In this document: one piece after another, positions 4,461 to 58,989 of the stretch
How the letters are laid out: every line of letters begins with the position of its first letter
Numbering within the stretch: the first letter of the stretch is position 1
DNA from: Lineus longissimus
Lineage: Eukaryota > Nemertea > Pilidiophora > Heteronemertea > Lineidae
Direction: 5' to 3'
DNA: 64,000 nt
NCBI RefSeq assembly: GCF_910592395.1
Contig: NC_088325.1
Span: forward strand, 9,798,109 to 9,862,108
Notes under the pieces: model-generated
What the model was told of the DNA's origin: nothing
The model's input: only the letters and a program-made list of their open reading frames with translations
Database searches by the model: none
Made by a program: the position numbers and the translations under genes

Positions 4461-24157
<19,697 letters not shown>

Positions 24158-29949: not shown

Positions 29950-30690
29950 TTGTCTGCATGTTGATGTCTGGTTCATGTTGACACATGGTCCATGTCTGGT
30001 AGTCCATATTGACGTCTAGTCCATGTTGACATCTGGTCCATGTCAGGTTGTCCATGTTGATGTCTGGTCCATGTTGACATCTGATCCATGTCAGGTTGTC
30101 CATGTTGACATCTGGTCCATGTTGACATCTGGTCCATGTCAGGTTGTCCATGTTGATGTCTGGTCCATGTTGACATCTGATCCATGTCAGGTTGTCCATG
30201 TTGACATCTGGTCCATGTTGACATCTGGTCCATGTTGACATCTGGTCCATGTCAGGTTGTCCATGTTGATATCTGGTCCATGTTGACATCTGGTCCATGT
30301 TGACATCTGGTCCATGTCAGATTGTCCATGTTGATGTCTGGTCCATGTTGACATCTGGTCCATGTTGACATCTGGTCCATGTTGACATCTGGTCCATGTC
30401 AGGTTGTCCATGTTGACATCTGGTCCATGTTGTCATCTGACCCATGTCAGGTTGTCCATGTTGACATCTGGTCCATGTTGACATCTGGTCCATGTCAGGT
30501 TGTCCATGTTGATGTCTGGTCCATGTTGACATCTGGTCCATGTTGACACATGGTCCATGTTGACACATGGTCCATGTCAGGTTGTCCATGTTGACATCTG
30601 GTCCATGTTGACATCTGGTCCATGTTGACATCTGGTCCATGTCAGGTTGTCATGTTGACACATGGTCCATGTTGACACATGGTCCATGTT
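29950..30690. repeat. Composite 17-bp and 14-bp minisatellite
   Basis: The 17-bp unit GTTGACATCTGGTCCAT alternates with a 14-bp unit GTCAGGTTGTCCAT in blocks. Because 17 is not a multiple of 3, long frames open in several frames on both strands. These are repeat artefacts, not genes. Confidence 0.95.
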
Positions 30691-31859
30691 GACAGCTTCT
30701 AAAACGTTCAAGTGGTTTTGATTTAGAGGTAAACTAGAGGGTTGGGGATGAAGCCAAAACTGCCTAAATCTATACTAGACATGTTTGGTGTAACAGATAA
30801 AGACAGTCTGGTAAATCAATTTTCATATTTAAAAAAAGTTTTTTTTTTCAAAATATAGTAACACTTCCTCCAAATTAAAAAATACCTGTTTTTGACTCAT
30901 AAAGTGAAAAAATTGTGAAATTTAAAACACCTGATAGACATCAACTTGTGATGTCTGATAGACATCAACTTGTGATGTCTATTAGATGTCCATTAGTTGT
31001 TTGATAGACTTCACCAGAAGTTTTCTTGTGTAGAGGGCAGCGCCTTTAAATGTGTAACTGAATGTGAACACCAATGTTGGTAGAATGTTGGTATAAGCTC
31101 AACAACTACTGTGTGAACATGTTTAAGCCATTTGATGTGCATCTGTTACAGATAGGCCTATTGCAGATGAAATAGGCCTACTGTACCGGCATCCCGTCTT
31201 AAACACATCGAGACAGTATTTTACCGGCCCAGGTTTAATTCATGTTTGTCGATCAATATAAGTTCAGAAATGAGAAAGATTATTTTACATAATGGGATGC
31301 TCAAAATGAGCAAAGATGGCCGTAGAGAAAAAATATACATGTATACTAATGTGTTTACATTAATTATGTGATGTCCGGTGTCCCTTTGAAGGGGACTATA
31401 GGCAGGAGCTAGGGTCTAATTGGAGGTCTTTTTGTGACCAGTGTAGGACTTGGTCATGTTTGATTTGCAATTAATATATTGGTGGTACAAAAACATTTTC
31501 AATTTAGGGTGACCCCTATTGGCAACTTTGTGTCACTTTACCTGGCTCCTGCCTGTATGCTCCCTTTAATACGCTCCAGCCAATGAGTTTGATGTCCCTT
31601 TAAATAATAGATTATTCCACTTTAAAAGTGGCCTTGGATGAGATTATGTATAGATACTTGTAGTTGTAAACAAATGCCAGTGTGCCTGCTGACGGTTAGG
31701 ACTCGTGTCAACTTGCTTTAGATTTACAATAGACGATACACGCTGATACACGGGCGTTTTTGTGTAGCTGAGGTGACACGGACTAGGAGTACTTGCTGTA
31801 AATTTCATGTTGGTTCCTGATGCCACTGCTTGATGGGCGTCGTTGTAATTGACGACCAT

Positions 31860-40414: not shown

Positions 40415-40596
40415 TACGGTAGAACCTCTTTATTAAGGACACCCTCAGGACTGACATGTACTGTCCTTAATAGAGAGGTGTCCTGATTAGAGAGGTCAAG
40501 CTGAATAGAAACTACCAATTTGGAACCAGACCTAGTGTCTTTTATAGAGTGGTCAACCTTAATAGAGAGGTGTCTGCTAAGAGAGGTGCTACTGTA
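40415..40596 (-). mobile_element. MITE family A copy
   Basis: Ends TACGGTAGAACCTC and GAGGTGCTACTGTA; 1.3 kb upstream of the U2AF1 start. Confidence 0.9.
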
Positions 40597-41897
40597 GTAT
40601 TTTCAGTCAAATTTTCTCAATTCTGGAGTATTGTAGTGATTTCTATCAACATCCAACATGTCCAAAGTGTACTCCGAATGCACCATCCTTTGCAGAATCC
40701 AGCAGTCAAGGAGAACAAATTTCATTTAAGATGATCAAAAAGAGTAATTTAGAATGAGTGCGATTTCGGAGTATCATAATACTTCAAAAGTGTGCTCGTC
40801 TGGTCTGAAATTGGCAACATTATTGTTAGGGGTAGAATGTTCCACAAATCACATTCCTCCAATCGTCTACAATTGCCTCTGATTGACAGTGTAACATTCA
40901 TAATGTAGCCAGATGGTCAGCTATTACCAGAATTGGGTTAAAATACAATTAAAAATGTGTTCGAGCTGTAACTGACTTTCTGTAACTGACTTTTTGGTTA
41001 GATTTGTTAACAGTTACTTCATGTTTTATTTCTCTTAGTGTAGTCTTACCAAGATAGTATTTCCTGCACAAGTCCAATTTGTCGTCATCTTTCATTTTAC
41101 GGAGATCCATTTTGTACTGAAAAGAAAAAAATACATGAAAATTTCAATTAATTGTACCTTCATCTTTCTACATTCTATCTTTATCTTTCTGAGGTACTCC
41201 ATTGGATTGAGACTCATTCGAAAAAAGTTGTGGTGTTAGTCTGGTGGATGATCGAAATCAAAAGTGCTGAATTCTATTTCTAATCTACATCTACGCCTAC
41301 GGTAAGCAGGCCTTTTATCATTGTAGACTCGCTCCCCATTAACAAAAAATGTCGTGAACGCAAGGTCATTTTTCGCTGTTTGGTGCACGGCAGTCATGGA
41401 AATAACCCAGGTCATAAATAATAAATGCCCAGTAATCAATCAAACAAAGGCATTGAGCTTGCCTTGCCTTTGGCAAGGCCAAGGCAAGGGGAGGCCTAAC
41501 CAAGTTTGGGTTCCCCAAGTCGAATGTTTTTTTAGAAATGGAACTAGAGTTGTGGAACAACTTGGCATCTTCATGGGAGATACTTCTGGTTGCCAAAATA
41601 TTTCATAAATTAGATAAAAATCGACAAATTCTCACTTTCTGTTCTTTTTCTGCACAGGGAAATGAGTTACTTGTGAGATACGTCACCAGTTTTTGTGCAA
41701 AAAGCTCTCAAAACTCAATCAACAAATCTTTAGAAACAACTGTATTCAACAAATATTTTCCAATAATCCAACACTGTAGCGTGTTAAATTTCTACATATA
41801 GAGAAATAACGAAAAAATGATATTTATCTTTTGTACTGAATACGTTTGTGCTATTTTTCTTTCATGAGCTCAAAGGCTATATCACAGCGGCAGCAAA

Positions 41898-41941
41898 ATG
41901 GCCGAATATCTAGCTTCGATTTTCGGAACCGAAAAAGACAA
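41898..41941 (+). CDS. U2AF1: U2AF1 exon 1
   Basis: A 44-nt coding part encoding [14 protein letters not shown] plus two bases of Lys15. The donor is GTGCGT. The upstream context GCAGCAAAATGG is a fair animal start context. The 5' UTR limit is not visible. Confidence 0.96.
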
Positions 41942-44900
41942 GTGCGTTTACCCCCCTAAATCGTGTTTAGTCCCCTTAAAAATCCGTTCAAAGTTTACTT
42001 CATATATTCCTCTTAAAATTTATGTCTAGTTTGGTTTGTAGATTTTGGTAGTTGTTGAAGAAAATGAGGCCGAAAATCGGGTTCAAATTCTGTAGTGCTT
42101 TGCCATATAACAATACATGTGCGTGTACGTGCATGCATGTATGTAAATGTATGCATGTATTGTACTTTGTAGTACAAAGACTTGTTAGCCAGTTAAAGAG
42201 TAAATGATATCGAATGTAGGCCTATGTACATGTAGATTGTATAAGCCTTTCTACCTTTAGACGAACCTGTGACTGGAAATCATCGTCCCAGGTCTGATTT
42301 ACCTAAAAGAAGTCTAGGCCCTAGTTATTTTACGAAATACAGCACTTTTAGAAGTTGGCCCGGAAGTTGCGACGGTATGTTTAGACAATGGGAGACTGCT
42401 AAAATGTGGATTCTGCCAACTGGCAAAGCGAGGATGCAACCATTCCCGATTCCACAATTCTGCAGTCTCCCATTGTCTACTCTAAATTTAGTCTAAACCA
42501 TACCTTGGCCACTTCCGGGCCAACTTCTTATACATGCGTCGTATAAAAACAATGGTTCATCACACTTCTGGACGAGTCTTTATTCGGAAACTTTTCTTTA
42601 TTCGGACACTGAGAGTCCGAAATAGGACTAAAGGGTGTCCGAATTTGAAATCGGGTAGTGAAAACATTGAATGGGTGTTCAGAAATGCGTGAAAATGTTG
42701 GTTTTTCAGGTAAAACTTCTTTTGATTATTGTAGGTAAAAATCATGTCCACAACTTGGCTAAGGCTTGCATGTGAATTGAAAACTCTTTTAACGGATCCT
42801 TTTCTTTCAGAGTCAACTGTTCCTTCTACTTCAAGATCGGTGCTTGTCGTCACGGAGAGAGATGTTCGCGATTACATAACAAACCCACATTCAGTCAGGT
42901 AAGCTCAAACAAAAATATCCAAACGAAAAGGGCACACTTAAAAAATTGTTTGTTTGATGTTAGCCTACCTACCCATAAAAACTTCTCCACCTTAAAAATT
43001 AAGAGTTGGGAGGGGGAGGATTGGGAAAATTTGTTGAAAATACGTTATTTCTTCCAATTTTCTGCATTTCTTTTAGGATTTCAGGGAAATATTTGTTTTA
43101 TTGTTGATGATAAACAAAATGCTAGCCTGCCTACCCACACGAAAGTTTCTGGAGACGAATGTTACAGTCACACATGTATATTTAAACTTACGAATTTCAA
43201 GGGTGTTCAAATTTTTCCCCATTTGGCGTTCAGCGACCTTATTTTGATTTTTGAAGTATTGTGCCTACCACCTTCAGTTGACAAGACATCTTTAATATTT
43301 CGAGCTCTGGTAACAAGGAGTCTGTAACTTCTTTTCATTTTGGCGGGTTACTGAAGGCTCTGGTGTAGAGATGTGTCACATTTCTCACAATGGTCATAAA
43401 AATCCATTGGATATTGTTAATGTTATAGGGGTGTGGGACACACAAAGTGCTACGCAGTTGTTTGCTACTGCCAGGGAAAAAAATACAACTTCATCAATGA
43501 TATCTTCATATCTCATTTTCAGAAGGTCATAAGATGGTTCCAGTCCTGCAGATCAAACAACAGAGAGGTGGTAATACTGAAAAGCAATTCCCTCTCTCAC
43601 AACAGGGTTCCTGTACAACCAGGAAAAAAGCAATAATATCTTTACATTACATGTACATCTCACTTTCAGACAATTCTCATTCCCAATCTGTACATCAACC
43701 CGCAGAACAGTGCATTGACTGCAGATGGATCGCACAGTAAGTTTTAAATGCATTACAAGTCTTTAATACTTTCAGACAATTCTGATTCCCCAACTGTATA
43801 TGAATCCGCAGAATAGTGCGTTGACCGCGGATGGATCACATAGTAAGTTTGAAATATATTACATTACAATTCGCACTGTTTTCTTTGTCAATCGGCATGA
43901 GGTTGCTTCTCTAGAAGAGTTTGTAATCAGTCAGGAAGGAGGTGGTATTCCATACCTCCCTCCTTGGCCTGGATTTCCATACTTTTGGTTGGATAGCCAG
44001 GCCACTTCATCATAGCACGTGTTAAAAATTATACATTCACTCTCATCAGGCACAGACACACTCATCTCCCAGAGTAACACTACATCATGTATTCGTAATT
44101 GAAGCCAGTAAGTCAACTAGAAAAGTGACTGAGTCATAATTAGGCTCTAACTTCAAGCAACAGTCTCTTAAATGTTTCAACACAGAATGACCAAAGAAGA
44201 AATGAGATCCAGAAAAAAAAATGGTGGAGACATTCTTATGTCCATGTAGTTTTAGTACTTTTTCAGCAGTCTTGATAGCATTTGTATTTGCATGTCAATT
44301 CTACCATTGCCTCGTGGACCCTGATGAGCTAACAAATATATCTGAGCCGAAAAGCAGGATGTGTTTTTAGTCTCCGCAAATCCGTCCTTGATCAGTTGAT
44401 GTATGTAACCATAAGGGAGAAGTGTCTCGAATTAATGGCCGGCACAGATTAAGTCCACTGAGTTTCAGTATGGAGTGTTGTCGAGATGCATCAAAAAAAG
44501 TACACAGATGTTCTGTACAACATTTACATGTAGATTATCTGATATATACAGTAGAACCACTCTATTAAGGACACCCTCAGGACTGACAAGTGCTGTCCTT
44601 GATCGAGAGGTGTTATGATTAGAGAGGTCAAATTGAATGGAAACAACCAATTTGAGACCAAAACTAGTGTCCTTAATAGAGAGGTTGTCCTTAGTAGAGA
44701 GGTGTCCGCTAAGGGAGGTTCTACTTTAACGGCATCCTCTCTAGACAGTTGGCGAGGATTCTCTGTAACTATCATACTAGAAGGCTAATTACAGGCCTAG
44801 GATCATTTATATGTTTTCTTGATTGTTAAATTTTTCCAGTCCAGTTGAGCGATGTGGAGATGCAGCAGTACTATGACGAGTTCTTCGAGGAAGTGTTCGT

Positions 44901-47375
44901 GGAACTCGAGGATAAGTATGGAGAGATCGAAGAGATGAACGTCTGCGACAACCTCGGTGACCACTTGGTGGGCAATGTCTATGTAAAGGTACGTGTTGTT
45001 CGATGATAGAGACGCTAAATGAATATGAGTGTGGTTACCAGGACATGTTGCCCTTAATATTGAGTCCTAACGTGGTGCATAGACGATGGATTCAAGAGGA
45101 CTCTCTGGAGAGTCTGGTGGCATTGGCTTGGGTGCCATCTGGGGGATGTGCATGAACTCAAGGGCAAATATTGTATGTATTGTTCCAGTACTGGTCAGGG
45201 ACTTTTTTACTCCCCTTATTATAACCAGATGAATCTCCTGGTCAGTTAGAACAGGGGGCGGAGGGGGGGCAGGCATAGGTTGGCGTAGGCTGGCTGGAAA
45301 TGGGTGTGTCTCAAGGACACAGAGACATAACTGTGGTGACCCTTGGCCTTTCAAGTGTAAACTTGCAGCCTGTAACCAATGGGAAATATAGCTACATGTA
45401 CAGTGAGCTGAGGTGGGTAACTGTCCGAAACAAGTTTGCTTTGACAAATTGGTTGCCTTGTCCTTTGAATTAGGTGTAAAACCAAGATTCCTTGTACAGA
45501 GACTGAAATAACTTGTATCTTATCGTATTCAAACTAAGACGAAGTAAAATGCTTTCTCTTTATTTTCCAGTTCCGCTATGAGGAAGATGCCGAGAAGTCT
45601 GTTCAAGGTTTGAACAACCGATGGTTCAACGGCCGGCCAATCCATGCGGAGCTGTCCCCTGTGACAGACTTCCGTGAGGCGTGTTGCCGTCAGTATGAGA
45701 TGGGGTGCGTACAATTCAGTATACGTATATCGCTCCATCAATGACACCCGTAAGGCTGACATATGCTGTCCTTACTCTAGAGGTATCCTGATTAAAGGGG
45801 TGTAACTTAATGGAAATGTCCAGTTCCAGATCAAATTCGGTGTCCTTTAAAATGGGTGTTCTGTGTCTGCTGAGGGAGGTTGCATTGTTCAATACCTGAT
45901 GTTGATTCATTGCCTGAACAAACCAAGGACAGTTTGCATGTGATACCAACTGCTCATGAAATGGACTATAGACTATAGTTGACCTCTGTCCTAAGGATTG
46001 ATGGAAGATCACTTTTAAAGCGAATTTCACACTAACCAGCGTTATAGCCTGCTTAATATTTTCACCACCGACGAAAATGCACCTTCTCATATCCTGTTCT
46101 AAATGCCGGCGAAGATCGCCTCATGAAATTCACCCAACATGTGGACAGTAGGATTCCATTCAGAGTCTCCCATATGGGAATTCCATAACAATGACTCGAT
46201 GCATAGATATTGCTGGGATACCGACTGCGGCGCAGGAAATGCAGGGGCATTATTCTGCTTGTGAGAAATACGCTTTGATTTGTTTGAAAATTCCTCAATT
46301 TCGTCTGCTTGTTTTCAGAGAGTGTACACGAGGTGGATTCTGCAACTTCATGCACTTGAAGCCCATTTCCCGCGAGTTGCGACGGGAATTATACGGCCGT
46401 CAACGCGGGGGTGGTGGAGGTGGGGGTGGGGGTGGAGGACGCAAGCGGGGACGGTGAGTTCAAAACGATGTACAGGAGAACCTCTCTATCAAAGACACCC
46501 TTGGGACTGTTAAATGCTGTCCATATCAGAGAGGTGTCCTGATTACAGAGGTCAATTTTGATGAAAATGAAAGGTTTGGGATCAAACCAGTTTCCATATT
46601 AAAGAGGGTGTCCTTAGAAGTGAGGTGTCCGCTTAGAGAGGTTCCACTGTAACTTAATAATAATGTATGATGGTTTCCAGCCATCTGAGGCTGCATTTGG
46701 TTTACGTCTTCACATGTAACGTGTCACTGTTCACTTATCATTGGTGACATAAAGAACAAACTAGTCGTTTCTAAAGAGCGAGTTACATACGATTCACGAT
46801 GTCACTTTCACCCTCATGTCGTGTTTTCCAGCCTCATGACAAATGAATCATGACAAGTGACAATGTGAACTCTATGAAACTCTGTCTGAGGGTGAACTTT
46901 AGGATACAGAATTGATATTCACAAGAAAAGACGCTCTGTTATAAATGTACTAGGTGACACAAAAAAAAATCGTACACTTTTGATCTTGAATAAGTGCTAA
47001 AATATGGCTTTTTGACCAAATTTCTGTCACTTGAAGCTGAGAATGAGATCAATACTTCTGGTTTCCAGTTTGTTTTATTCTATTGTCTGAATTCGTTATT
47101 GCACAATAACCGTTTAAATTTTTTGGCTCTTCTGCGCTGAAGCAGGTTAAACCCCTGGCCAGGTTTAACCCCAGAACCAAGGGGTTCTGCACCCAAGCAG
47201 GTTTAACCCCTGTTATCATTTATCTTATCTTGTTTTCAGGTCCCGATCCCGCTCACCACCAACGCGGAGGAGTCACAGCCGCAGCAGGTCGCGCAGTCGT
47301 GAACGACGCAGGCGCTCGAGGTCACGCAGCCGTGAACGCAGGAGGGAACGCGAGGACAGGCACGGCCGATTCTAA
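41898..47375 (+). CDS. U2AF1: U2AF1, U2 snRNP auxiliary factor 35-kDa subunit
   Basis: This is the complete small subunit of U2AF, which binds the 3' splice-site AG in the nucleus and pairs with U2AF2. Coding exons are 41898-41941, 42811-42898, 43670-43736 or 43776-43842, 44840-44988, 45571-45704, 46319-46453 and 47240-47375. With one copy of exon 3 the product is 250 aa (human about 240). In order it has [15 protein letters not shown], zinc finger 1 ([20 protein letters not shown]), the UHM domain ending NVYVKF, zinc finger 2 ([20 protein letters not shown]), a poly-Gly stretch and an Arg/Ser tail ending HGRF. Ser34 and the QYEMGE segment are conserved. The start is the ATG after CGGCAGCAAA. 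Confidence 0.98.
42350..42528. mobile_element. Inverted-repeat element in U2AF1 intron 1
   Basis: AGAAGTTGGCCCGGAAGT at the left is mirrored by ACTTCCGGGCCAACTTCT at the right. Inside it, GACAATGGGAGACTGC is mirrored by GCAGTCTCCCATTGTC. Confidence 0.85.
42811..42898 (+). CDS. U2AF1: U2AF1 exon 2, first zinc finger
   Basis: An 88-nt exon between TTCTTTCAG and GTAAGC. It encodes [18 protein letters not shown] and then [11 protein letters not shown], giving the first CCCH zinc finger used in AG recognition. Confidence 0.97.
43670..43736 (+). CDS. U2AF1: U2AF1 exon 3a (first alternative copy)
   Basis: A 67-nt exon after CACTTTCAG with donor GTAAGT, encoding [20 protein letters not shown] then SH plus one base. 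This is the first strand of the UHM domain and the loop after it. Its phase fits exon 2 and exon 4. A second copy follows after only 39 nt. Confidence 0.93.
43776..43842 (+). CDS. U2AF1: U2AF1 exon 3b (second alternative copy)
   Basis: A 67-nt exon after ATACTTTCAG with donor GTAAGT. It is the same length and phase as exon 3a and encodes [20 protein letters not shown] then SH. It differs from 3a at 12 of 67 bases but only two residues (Asn to Gln, Ile to Met). Including both copies would add 134 nt and break frame, so the pair should be mutually exclusive. Confidence 0.92.
44547..44729 (-). mobile_element. MITE family A copy in U2AF1 intron 3
   Basis: The left end TACAGTAGAACCAC is intact and the right end has decayed (GGTTCTACTTTA). 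It lies 110 bp before exon 4. Confidence 0.9.
44840..44988 (+). CDS. U2AF1: U2AF1 exon 4, UHM core
   Basis: A 149-nt exon from TTTTTCCAG to GTACGT. It encodes [19 protein letters not shown] and then [18 protein letters not shown]. It forms the acidic helix and core of the UHM that binds the Trp ligand of U2AF2. Confidence 0.97.
45571..45704 (+). CDS. U2AF1: U2AF1 exon 5, end of UHM and start of zinc finger 2
   Basis: A 134-nt exon after TATTTTCCAG. It encodes [20 protein letters not shown], then [20 protein letters not shown]. The donor is GTGCGT. A divergent family A MITE begins 16 nt into the intron. Confidence 0.97.
45720..45889 (-). mobile_element. Divergent MITE family A copy near a U2AF1 donor
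   Basis: This is the most diverged copy. The core (GACACCCGTAAGGCTGAC, GTCCTTACTCTAGAGGT, GGAGGTTGCATTGT) is recognisable and the left TIR is eroded. It begins about 16 nt after the exon 5 donor. Confidence 0.75.
46319..46453 (+). CDS. U2AF1: U2AF1 exon 6, zinc finger 2 and poly-Gly
   Basis: A 135-nt exon after GTTTTCAG, encoding [30 protein letters not shown] and then about ten Gly residues before RKRG. The donor is GTGAGT. A family A MITE begins 18 nt into the intron. Confidence 0.96.
46471..46651 (-). mobile_element. MITE family A copy near a U2AF1 donor
   Basis: Ends TACAGGAGAACCTC and GAGGTTCCACTGTA. It starts 18 nt after the end of exon 6. Confidence 0.9.
47240..47375 (+). CDS. U2AF1: U2AF1 exon 7, RS domain and stop
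   Basis: A 136-nt coding part after TTGTTTTCAG. It encodes an Arg/Ser-rich tail ([30 protein letters not shown]) ending GRF and TAA at 47373-47375. A tail of this kind mediates protein contacts in the spliceosome. The end of the 3' UTR was not located. Confidence 0.95.
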
Positions 47376-55818: not shown

Positions 55819-55912
55819 CTTTTAAGGCCTAATCAATCTTATTTTCAGAATCAAAGGAGTGAGACGGACGTGACTGACGAGACCAGCTCCGGTAGAGGCC
55901 AACGCTTCAAGC

Positions 55913-57132
55913 ATGGCAACCTCTATCCAAAAGTGCAACAAATGTGATCGGGCTCGCACCGGCACATACCTTATACAAAAATGTGGTCACACCATCTGCA
56001 AAGAGTGCCTTCCGAATGCTGAATTAGGTTCTTTTCTTAAATGTCAAAGAAAGGTATTCTCTGTGTCTAACCCGGACCATAGCATTTATCGGTATGCGCA
56101 GTACTTTCCTTCTACCCACGAAGATGGCTCCCCAAGACATGCAGATCGGTCATCGGAGCCCCCGGAACTCGTGAACCCGACCCCCGGAGATTGCCCCGTT
56201 TGCCAACAGAGGATCTTGTGCGAGAATATGACACTCAACGTCAACCTTGTAACATTTCATGAGTTCGACTGGATAAAGCAAGTGCATGAAAGATTAGGCC
56301 CGAAGACCTGTGCCGAATGTCCAGAAGGTCAGGTACAAGAGGGGAAGTATCACTGCCTAAAATGTGATCGCATCCTCTGCGAAAAGTGCCAGCGTGTCCA
56401 CCACCCGGATGGAGGCCATCACCCGCTTCCCTTAGATGACATCGCGAACCGAAATTTGCCGTTTAACATTAACTTAAACAGAGGCTTCGACCCGCTGTAT
56501 TGTGGGTTGCATCCTAATCAGAAGCTCTCGCACTTCTGCAAGGGCTGCTCAAAACCAGTGTGTCGCCTGTGTTTACAATTTCATGAACAGGAAGGTCACG
56601 AGCTCATCATGCTCGATGAAGGGCTGGTAGAGATGCAAAAATACGTCAAGGATAATCTAGAAAAAGTCCATCAATACAAGAACATGATTAGCGTCGAGAA
56701 AGATAAATTTCAACGCTGTGAAATCGCCAAGTACATCGCGGAATTAAAGCACCTCCCAGAGATGATAGCAGCCTGTCTGAAGCCTGATATTGACGCAGCC
56801 ATTGACGAACTATCCCGATTCAAGATGATAGCCGTGAACCATGAATCCAAGTACAACGCAGATATCGCAAAAGACGAGATCGGAAACTTGTTGGCGCTGG
56901 AAAAGACCCACGAAATCATGCACAGGGGGAAAGAAAAGAATGTTTGCAGTCATGAGGAACGGCTCATCCGACTTTATAGCTTCTTGAAATCCAATGAAAT
57001 GTCTGTGGAAGGGGCTCAAAGGAGCTTGTGTCGTCTTCAGAGGGACTCAGCAACCCAGCTACCAAATCCTGTAGTCATTTACAACGACTCGGTGAAACAG
57101 TTGCTGAGGAAGACACGCGAAGAGCATCTTCA
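55913..57132 (+). CDS. TRIM exon 1: RING, B-boxes, coiled coil
   Basis: 1220 nt of coding sequence ending with a split His codon (CA then GTGAGT). Reading on would hit an in-frame TGA at 57134, but the next exon restores the frame. An acceptor-like ATTTTCAG at 55841-55848 suggests that 55849-55912 is 5' UTR spliced to an upstream non-coding exon, which I did not locate. Confidence 0.9.
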
Positions 57133-58989
57133 GTGAGTAAAACCTATTTCAAAGTCTTCTACATGGTTTCTGTTTTTATATAGTGCACAAAGCAGCGTCC
57201 CAAATCTTGCCCCCCCCCCGCCCCGAAAAACTTCCATTATTGGTGCTCGTCGGTGTTACTGACCTGCAAGGAGTAACGAATCCCCCAAGGATTATTTATA
57301 AAGCCCCCATATTCTGAAATTGGCAGCACAGCCTGTTGCACTGTATATAAACTAGAAGTGGTATTGGTTGCATATTCTTCGACTTATATTCTTAGTAATA
57401 CCCGACTGTCGTTTTTATAACAAAAAGTCTCTCCAGCTATATTGAAAATCCATCTACTGGTTGTATTTTGACCTATAATGATTCCTTTTGCCCGTCGAAT
57501 TAAATTCTATTGGCCTACATGTATGTGTTATCCCTTTATCTCTAACGAATCTGCTGGATCTGTGTCTTTCAGTGTGGTTCGAAAGGAAAGGGTCAAAGGA
57601 GTGTTCCATCACTGCACCAGAAATCACCCTGCCGATGGCACGCCGCCCAGGTTGGTGTCAGGCACAATCTTGGCAGCAGAAGGAGATCGTAATGTCCAAA
57701 TTGTTGTCGCTGACGCGAATAAAAAAGTGATGGTAAGTTTTCACGACTCCATCATTTTCTCCTCCTTCCTCTCCTCTTCCTTCTTCTTCAACTTTTTTTT
57801 CATCTCTGCGTTAGCATTTTTGACGGACACTTCAGTTATGGGCTGTCTTCGATTACTAGCGCAAGTAAGCGCCAGTGCGTTCTTTTTGGTACTGGCGCCT
57901 CATCTCGCGCCAGGCCGAAGTGAGCGACCCTGCGAGGAAATTGATATTTGGATGTGAAAAAATTGTTCAATGAGGTTAGTGAGTCGTTTTTGTAGTTCAC
58001 GCACATCCGTTAGTGTGTCTGGTCATTCTTTTTGACGCTACTTTACCCTAAAGTTACTCGGGCCTGGCGCGAGAGAGTTTGGGCTCGATTCATACTGGGC
58101 ATGCGCCTCGAGGCGCGAGATCCGATGCTTACCGAAGCGCCGCGCTAGAAATCGAACGCGCTATTAAATAGGTACATTTATATATATATGCTTCGCCGCC
58201 CTGAATCTTGGACTTCTTAACTCGTGTAAAGAAGACCGTGTCGTTAACTACCCCCATCTTCATGGTAAAATCTTTCGATATTTCCAATTTTTAAGAGGTT
58301 TACATTATTTCATACAGGTCTTTGAGTTCAGCCCCACCAAAGGCATCATCCTTAAATGGGAGAAAAGTCAGGAGATAAGTGCAACCCTGCGGAGCATGAA
58401 AGAACTGAAAGAAGCCCGGATCCACCAAGATGGCAAGTTTGTAATTGTTGTTGACGTCGAGGGAGCCGTCTGTGAGATAGGAGGGCACCGGAAGTCTATC
58501 ATATTGAGAAAGGCAGACGTGACGGCCCAGGGTGACCATTGCCTACCCGCGAATCATGGGTATGACCTCCCGAAGTTTCTCGAACGAAAGGGAGTCATTC
58601 CTTACCAGGTGATCGGATTTGTTGAACGGGACACTTTCCTCGTGTCGGGGATGCATACTGCGACCAACAAGCCGCTGATCTTTGTCTCCAGGGGAGGTGA
58701 CGTCGACTTGAATATTATCCGGCCCGAAAATGACCGCCCATCTCGTGTCTGGATGGACTACGAGGGTTTTATCTATTGCGCAAACACCGACGCAAACTCT
58801 ATCACGCGGTATTCGCCCGATGGAAGATTTGACCGAGAGATCCTTTGCGCCTTCGATCATTTGTCCCGACCCGTTGACGTAGCCGTAGATAGGCAGTTTA
58901 TGTACGTCACAGAAGAGGAAGGGAATGTCAAGATATTTGGAAGAGTGCCCGGCCATGTTGCAGCCATATCCGAAAATACTGACAATTAG
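55913..58989 (+). CDS. TRIM protein with NHL-like propeller (683 aa)
   Basis: Coding exons are 55913-57132, 57573-57732 and 58318-58989; phases join cleanly. Family knowledge suggests a RING E3 ubiquitin ligase, cytoplasmic, with the C-terminal propeller binding RNA or protein. Residues 8-97 form a RING (C8, C11, C24, H26, C29, C32, C94, C97) with an unusually long 61-residue spacer before the last pair. B-box 1 spans about 133-170 and B-box 2 about 197-229 (CGLHPNQKLSHFCKGC). A coiled coil of about 160 residues follows. Exons 2 and 3 encode a repeat-like region with NHL-style signatures such as VWMDYEGFIYCANTDANSI and RYSPDGRF, and PVDVAVD. No filamin domain is seen. The ATG is preceded by an in-frame TGA at 55871. 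TRIM genes of this layout are expanded in many marine invertebrates, so orthology to a named TRIM is not claimed. Confidence 0.92.
57573..57732 (+). CDS. TRIM exon 2: start of propeller
   Basis: A 160-nt exon after GTGTCTTTCAG, encoding VVRKERVKGVFHHCTRN, GTPPRLVSGTILAAEGDRN and VQIVVADANKKVM. It ends in phase 0 before GTAAGT. Confidence 0.88.
57848..58160. repeat. GC-rich inverted repeats in TRIM intron 2
   Basis: TCTCGCGCCAGGCC at 57904 is exactly complementary to GGCCTGGCGCGAGA at 58061. A local hairpin GCGCCAGT-ACTGGCGC lies near 57870, and TAGCGC words appear at both outer ends. It is probably a MITE, but the ends are unclear. Confidence 0.6.
58318..58989 (+). CDS. TRIM exon 3: propeller and stop
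   Basis: A 672-nt terminal exon after TTCATACAG, encoding 223 residues to TAG. It contains repeated beta-propeller-like strands (KFVIVVDVEGAVCEI, TFLVSG, FIYCANTDANSITRYSPDG, QFMYVTEEEGNVKIFG). Codon use matches exon 1. Confidence 0.9.
   Translation, partial: VFEFSPTKGIILKWEKSQEISATLRSMKELKEARIHQDGKFVIVVDVEGAVCEIGGHRKSIILRKADVTAQGDHCLPANHGYDLPKFLERKGVIPYQVIGFVERDTFLVSGMHTATNKPLIFVSRGGDVDLNIIRPENDRPSRVWMDYEGFIYCANTDANSITRYSPDGRFDREILCAFDHLSRPVDVAVDRQFMYVTEEEGNVKIFGRVPGHVAAISENTDN

Follow-up and report, generated by a model that had tools for sequence, protein, structure and literature searches.

Adjacent alternative copies of exon 3 in the U2AF1 gene of Lineus longissimus: a candidate mutually exclusive pair that probably arose apart from the vertebrate one

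Exon 3 of the splicing factor gene U2AF1 occurs twice, 39 nt apart, in the nemertean worm Lineus longissimus. The locus raises two questions: whether the two copies exclude each other from the mRNA, and whether they descend from the exon pair known in vertebrate U2AF1 or were formed on their own. We analyzed a window of 64,000 nt (the whole stretch of DNA at positions 9,798,109 to 9,862,108 of contig NC_088325.1, forward strand) and its 284-kb neighbourhood (GC content, 41.2%). The reading that we favour, with a probability of about 0.72, is that exon 3 was duplicated locally and independently of the vertebrate pair and that its copies are now mutually exclusive, held apart by a three-layer lock.

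The U2AF1 gene and its two versions of exon 3

The window carries a complete U2AF1 gene on the plus strand (41898-47375) with 8 coding exons, 2 of them alternative (Table 1), and introns of 582 to 997 nt apart from the 39-nt spacer within the alternative pair. The product has the domain order ZnF-UHM-ZnF-RS, in which zf-CCCH is recognized in two stretches, the central domain matches RRM_1, and the RS tail is read from the translation. It matches Schizosaccharomyces pombe U2AF23 (E = 1e-76) and human U2AF35 (1jmt; E = 1e-50). These matches, together with the CCCH fingers and the RRM-type domain, bear out the gene identity proposed in an earlier interpretation made from the letters without database searches (the sequence-only reading). 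The product is 250 residues long with either copy of exon 3 alone.

Exons 3a and 3b are adjacent homologous exons of equal length and phase, each with ACTTTCAG directly 5' and GTAAGT directly 3'. Recomputed coordinates agree with the two 67-nt copies, 39 nt apart and each with its own acceptor and GTAAGT donor, that the sequence-only reading had described, and a recount returned the same differences, 12 of 67 bases and 2 of 22 residues (N50Q and I53M). Under weight matrices that rest on a general consensus, as do the branch-point assignments, the acceptors of 3a and 3b score 6.5 and 5.0 (5.9 to 12.9 for the other five U2AF1 acceptors) and the donors 6.8 and 6.4 (6.3 to 11.6 for the other five donors). 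The pyrimidine fraction of the acceptors is 0.68 for 3a and 0.63 for 3b, and 0.68 to 0.84 for the other five. An ungapped BLOSUM62 search with the exon 3 peptide on both strands of the window detected no third or relic copy, the next-best match scoring 26 against 114 and 105 for the pair.

Table 1. Coordinates of the U2AF1 exons and of the tandem unit within the window
Feature	Position	Strand	Basis or remark
U2AF1 exon 1 (coding part from ATG)	41898..41941	+	translation, donor
U2AF1 exon 2 (zinc finger 1)	42811..42898	+	zf-CCCH 14-38
Tandem unit copy 1 (25 nt intron, exon 3a, 14 nt intron)	43645..43750	+	repeat finder, TRF
ATTACA, left edge of unit	43646..43651	+	in register at 43752, 43858; another at 43863
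Alternative exon 3a, 67 nt, 22 residues	43670..43736	+	
39-nt spacer: 3a donor, candidate branch point (ATTAC, A at +19), 3b acceptor	43737..43775	+	
Tandem unit copy 2, 106 nt	43751..43856	+	repeat finder, TRF
Alternative exon 3b, 67 nt, 22 residues	43776..43842	+	
U2AF1 exon 4 (UHM)	44840..44988	+	
U2AF1 exon 5 (UHM end, zinc finger 2 start)	45571..45704	+	
U2AF1 exon 6 (zinc finger 2, glycine linker)	46319..46453	+	
U2AF1 exon 7 (RS domain, stop)	47240..47375	+	

Upstream of U2AF1 and on the same strand (+) lies a salt-inducible kinase (SIK) gene, with parts at 4659, 12067, and about 21567-24157. The exon at 12067 has SIK3 as its best match among solved structures (among the best 60 of 115 matches). 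The long open reading frame that ends at 24157 has no Pfam match and is presumed to be the last SIK exon; a 39-nt repeat at 23051-23578 (13.5 copies, 92% matches) lies inside this long open frame and is Gln-rich. Human SIK1 and U2AF1 are close neighbours on chromosome 21, and the proximity of the two genes in the worm may be an old microsynteny. A dispersed element recognized by eye (about 40419-40600, 44551-44730, 45740-45880, and 46475-46650), built of a 17- to 18-nt unit like TGTCCTTAATAGAGAGGT, occurs in several U2AF1 introns and in short tandem runs at many other spots. The window also includes a possible TRIM-NHL-like gene at 55874-58989 (+), with a B-box above its curated cut-off and RING and SGL below theirs, and long tandem arrays at 9051-10074 and 29957-30694 (62-nt unit; 17- to 65-nt units).

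Spacing, reading frame, and maintenance of both copies

Mutual exclusion is the best reading of the anatomy of the pair, as far as sequence features can indicate it, and both grounds that the sequence-only reading had offered for it, frame and spacing, stand. The ATTAC of the spacer is a candidate branch point, and none of the remaining adenines ahead of the acceptor AG lies beyond +32 from the donor. A branch point anywhere within these 39 nt would fall short of the steric limit of about 50 nt that has been proposed for the distance between donor and branch point (PMC7969005, PMC5740500). We propose that the 3a donor and the 3b branch point would be so near each other that U1 and U2 could not both assemble on the spacer, so that 3a would not be joined to 3b. 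The reading frame would form a second layer. Inclusion of both copies (134 nt) breaks the frame, as does the omission of both; the former meets a stop at residue 80, which lies 26 nt upstream of the junction between 3b and exon 4, and the latter at residue 47, and joint inclusion and joint skipping are both predicted to be non-productive by these early stops. As a third layer, readthrough of the spacer would meet a stop as well, at residue 70 when 3a, spacer, and 3b are retained together. With such a three-layer lock, each mRNA would carry one copy, 3a or 3b, and the resulting forms of U2AF35 would differ only at residues 50 (N/Q) and 53 (I/M).

The divergence between the copies is mostly silent. 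Nine substitutions are silent and three, in two codons, are replacements, which corresponds to a dS of 1.12 on 15.5 sites and a dN of 0.06 on 50.5 sites, as estimated from one pair of 67-nt sequences. Twelve random substitutions would leave no more than two residue changes with a probability of 6e-05. Had one copy drifted freely at a divergence (d) of 0.3, a mean of 10 residue changes would be expected, and two or fewer would arise with a probability of 0.00015, rising to 0.0081 at d = 0.2. High silent divergence with little protein change indicates that both copies have been under selection and were maintained at the protein level during most of their existence, in line with the purifying selection suggested by the sequence-only reading; the probabilities disfavour free drift at d = 0.2 to 0.3. 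The recent death of one copy would escape detection at d = 0.1 (P = 0.18). With the AG and the GTAAGT set aside, 9 of 31 positions of the intron flanks differ, against 9 of 15.5 silent sites, which is not significant (P = 0.11), and the idea that the flanks are better conserved than silent sites was dropped. Because the comparison has this P value, the age of the duplication is only loosely constrained.

Very short introns of about 40 nt are spliced in some animals, and the spacer has a GTAAGT, a possible branch point, and a CAG. If this lineage splices a 39-nt intron, the two copies can be joined, and exclusion would depend on frame and nonsense-mediated decay (NMD) alone, as in human. We consider this unlikely, given no excess of donor-acceptor pairs at spacings of 20 to 99 nt in the 284-kb neighbourhood: 78 pairs were counted against 99 in the reversed control at score thresholds of 8/6 and 6 against 13 at thresholds of 9/8, which is weak evidence from a scan that used consensus matrices and, lacking a clear excess at every length up to 400 nt, had no positive control. 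By our own estimate, a short-intron class like that of flies would have shown. It is also improbable that only one copy is productive, with the other in early decay or acting as a poison exon whose NMD targets tune the level of U2AF1. Such a role would suit the early stops that follow from both-in or neither-in splicing, the modest splice-site scores of both copies, and the presence of Q50 in 3b where both human isoform a and fission yeast have N50, and human U2AF1 does yield NMD targets of this sort (PMC5224494, PMC6821156). It fits poorly with heavy silent divergence beside just 2 residue changes and with an AG and a GT kept in each copy, and a pure poison exon would not need to give the full 250-aa protein that either copy gives alone.

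RNA pairing as a possible switch is not relied on here. One local hairpin, which covers the acceptor of 3a, is of marginal strength (z = -1.89; 6 of 200 shuffles as good), and the fold of the 401-nt region is ordinary (z = -0.19; 41 of 100 shuffles as good); a search of the window against Rfam gave no match at the gathering score. An inverted repeat with 13-nt arms (43605-43617 and 43689-43701) and 85% complementarity would bracket the 3a acceptor, and the stretch of 3b that matches 43689-43701 differs from it at three positions by eye. In human, the choice of U2AF1 exon depends on U2AF itself (PMC5224494), and by analogy the choice between 3a and 3b might be self-regulated by worm U2AF, which is a guess.

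Origin of the pair

The duplicated unit exceeds exon 3 by 25 nt upstream and 14 nt downstream. Its two 106-nt copies are identical at 85 of 106 positions, with no indel; a repeat finder delimits them at 43645-43750 and 43751-43856 (80%), and TRF, in agreement, gives a period of 106 nt over 43662-43863, with 1.9 copies, matches of 84%, and indels of 0%. Inside the unit, matches amount to 55/67 in the exon, 12/14 in the right flank, and 18/25 in the left flank, where 7 of the 10 positions from 43652 to 43661 differ. The left end of the unit is less certain than the right end, because little of the upstream flank matches beyond CATTACA and the acceptor. Outside the unit, identity at offset 106 drops to background, with 2-3/10 on the left and 1-3/10 on the right (43765-43804). 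The ATTACA motifs in register fit a duplication through slippage or unequal exchange between short repeats; this is suggestive rather than proof, because the plus strand of the window has 29 copies of ATTACA. We infer a local duplication of a 106-nt segment containing exon 3, possibly through such an event between ATTACA repeats 106 nt apart.

The mutually exclusive 67-nt exon pair that the sequence-only reading had mentioned for vertebrate U2AF1 is confirmed by PMC5224494: exons Ab and 3, which belong to U2AF35b and U2AF35a, are 67 nt each and seven residues apart, and the inclusion of both or neither leads to stop codons. The worm pair resembles them in affecting exon 3 of U2AF1, in length, in breaking the frame when both or neither is used, and in offering variants within the RNP2 region of the UHM. 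The seven human differences include Q49L (Q49 in exon Ab, L49 in exon 3), whereas the worm copies have two, and position 49, the sole human variant position named in the excerpted text, coincides with neither 50 nor 53. Conserved regions lie about 100 and 500 nt upstream of each vertebrate exon, and the authors suggested duplication of an intron 2-exon 3 segment (PMC5224494). Because these regions precede each copy, the vertebrate copies would be more than 500 nt apart, with breakpoints that differ from those of the worm. The human copies can also be joined, as U2AF1c, which is removed by NMD, and control of exon Ab involves a weak cluster of branch points together with a stem loop and a long pyrimidine tract (PMC5224494); the worm copies stand 39 nt apart.

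We find it probable that the worm pair arose by a duplication of exon 3 separate from that in vertebrates. The sequence-only reading had weighed this against gene conversion of an ancient pair; independence gains from the short local tandem unit, the likely spacing of more than 500 nt in vertebrates, and the lack of a long identical tract, and conversion loses. The worm pair does not appear to share breakpoints or a long intervening intron with the vertebrate pair. Recent gene conversion was rejected, as no stretch of identity exceeds 16 nt (P = 0.42 for a uniform scatter of the 21 differences within the unit, which are not quite uniform, with 7 of 21 at 43652-43661). The same reading had also taken the likeness of both copies to the vertebrate 'b' form (TADGSH) as a pointer to origin; this is not decisive, and the likeness may be the ancestral state. 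The letters of the 'b' form other than Q49, and likewise the remaining six human variant positions, are presumed.

A single duplication ancestral to worm and vertebrate, its spacing and differences since erased in the worm by conversion or deletion, would account for the shared exon, 67-nt length, and phases (PMC5224494), and a survey counts 21 tandem-exon events of human for which invertebrates have orthologous events (PMC9741552). U2AF1, which has 0 occurrences in the main text of PMC9741552, is possibly one of these 21. Equal length is no evidence for common ancestry, because duplicating the same exon gives equal length. The 106-nt unit with its 39-nt spacer, the short identical run, and worm differences at 50 and 53 against 49 in human make an ancient pair doubtful, as does the absence of the alternative exons from zebrafish reported in PMC5224494, a remark at odds with the statement of the same paper that the pair persisted across the whole of vertebrate evolution. 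Its authors left the origin of the pair unsettled owing to uncertainties in arthropod assemblies. A search for relatives in viral-contig and genome-contig collections returned none, and among the matches listed in a search of open-licence literature (titles and abstract openings) there was no report of an invertebrate U2AF1 exon pair.

Isoform differences and comparison with known systems

Residues 50 and 53 fall in the RNP2 region of the UHM, which is encoded by exon 3; the UHM binds U2AF65 and bears the zinc fingers. Position 50 is N in human isoform a (1jmt), fission yeast U2AF23, and worm 3a, and Q in 3b. Position 53 is R in human, K in yeast, and I (3a) or M (3b) in the worm. Bit scores against three U2AF sequences are slightly lower with 3b than with 3a (258.7/260.7, 255.7/257.6, and 174.1/175.8). 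Judged by the two outside species, 3b is probably the derived copy at residue 50. Cells with only one vertebrate form of U2AF35 differ in favoured 3' splice sites (PMC6821156), and N50Q in the worm might act likewise.

If the two duplications are independent, a core splicing factor had the same exon duplicated on two occasions and retained in two states each time, which would argue that two forms of U2AF35 are useful in themselves rather than an accident of vertebrates. A bolder and quite tentative proposal is that exon 3 has been doubled independently at least two times in animals, with two U2AF35 forms differing in RNP2 as the outcome on each occasion, as two 3' splice-site readers of slightly different preference profit the cell, that the worm switch is a 39-nt steric lock read by U2AF, and that N50Q shifts the favoured 3' splice sites. 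The worm pair is the simpler natural experiment, in that two residues differ in place of seven and 39 nucleotides suffice to read the proposed lock, and it would allow a compact test of whether RNP2 tunes the choice of 3' splice site.

By its anatomy, the exon 3 pair is a known kind of arrangement. Exclusion through the distance between donor and branch point is described for human OGDH exons 4a/4b and for 57 of 629 human clusters (PMC7969005, PMC5740500). In both OGDH and the worm pair this distance is below about 50 nt, the worm branch point being a candidate only; in OGDH an unusual distance separates the branch points from the 3' splice site, within a longer intron, whereas the entire worm spacer is 39 nt. 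Convergent tandem exon duplications in orthologous genes are known from 27 families shared by human and fly (PMC9741552), and worm and vertebrate U2AF1 would join them as independent duplications in orthologous genes. The ten human and fly calcium-channel events in the survey of PMC9741552 all hit different exons. What makes U2AF1 of interest is that the same exon has seemingly been doubled separately in worm and vertebrate.
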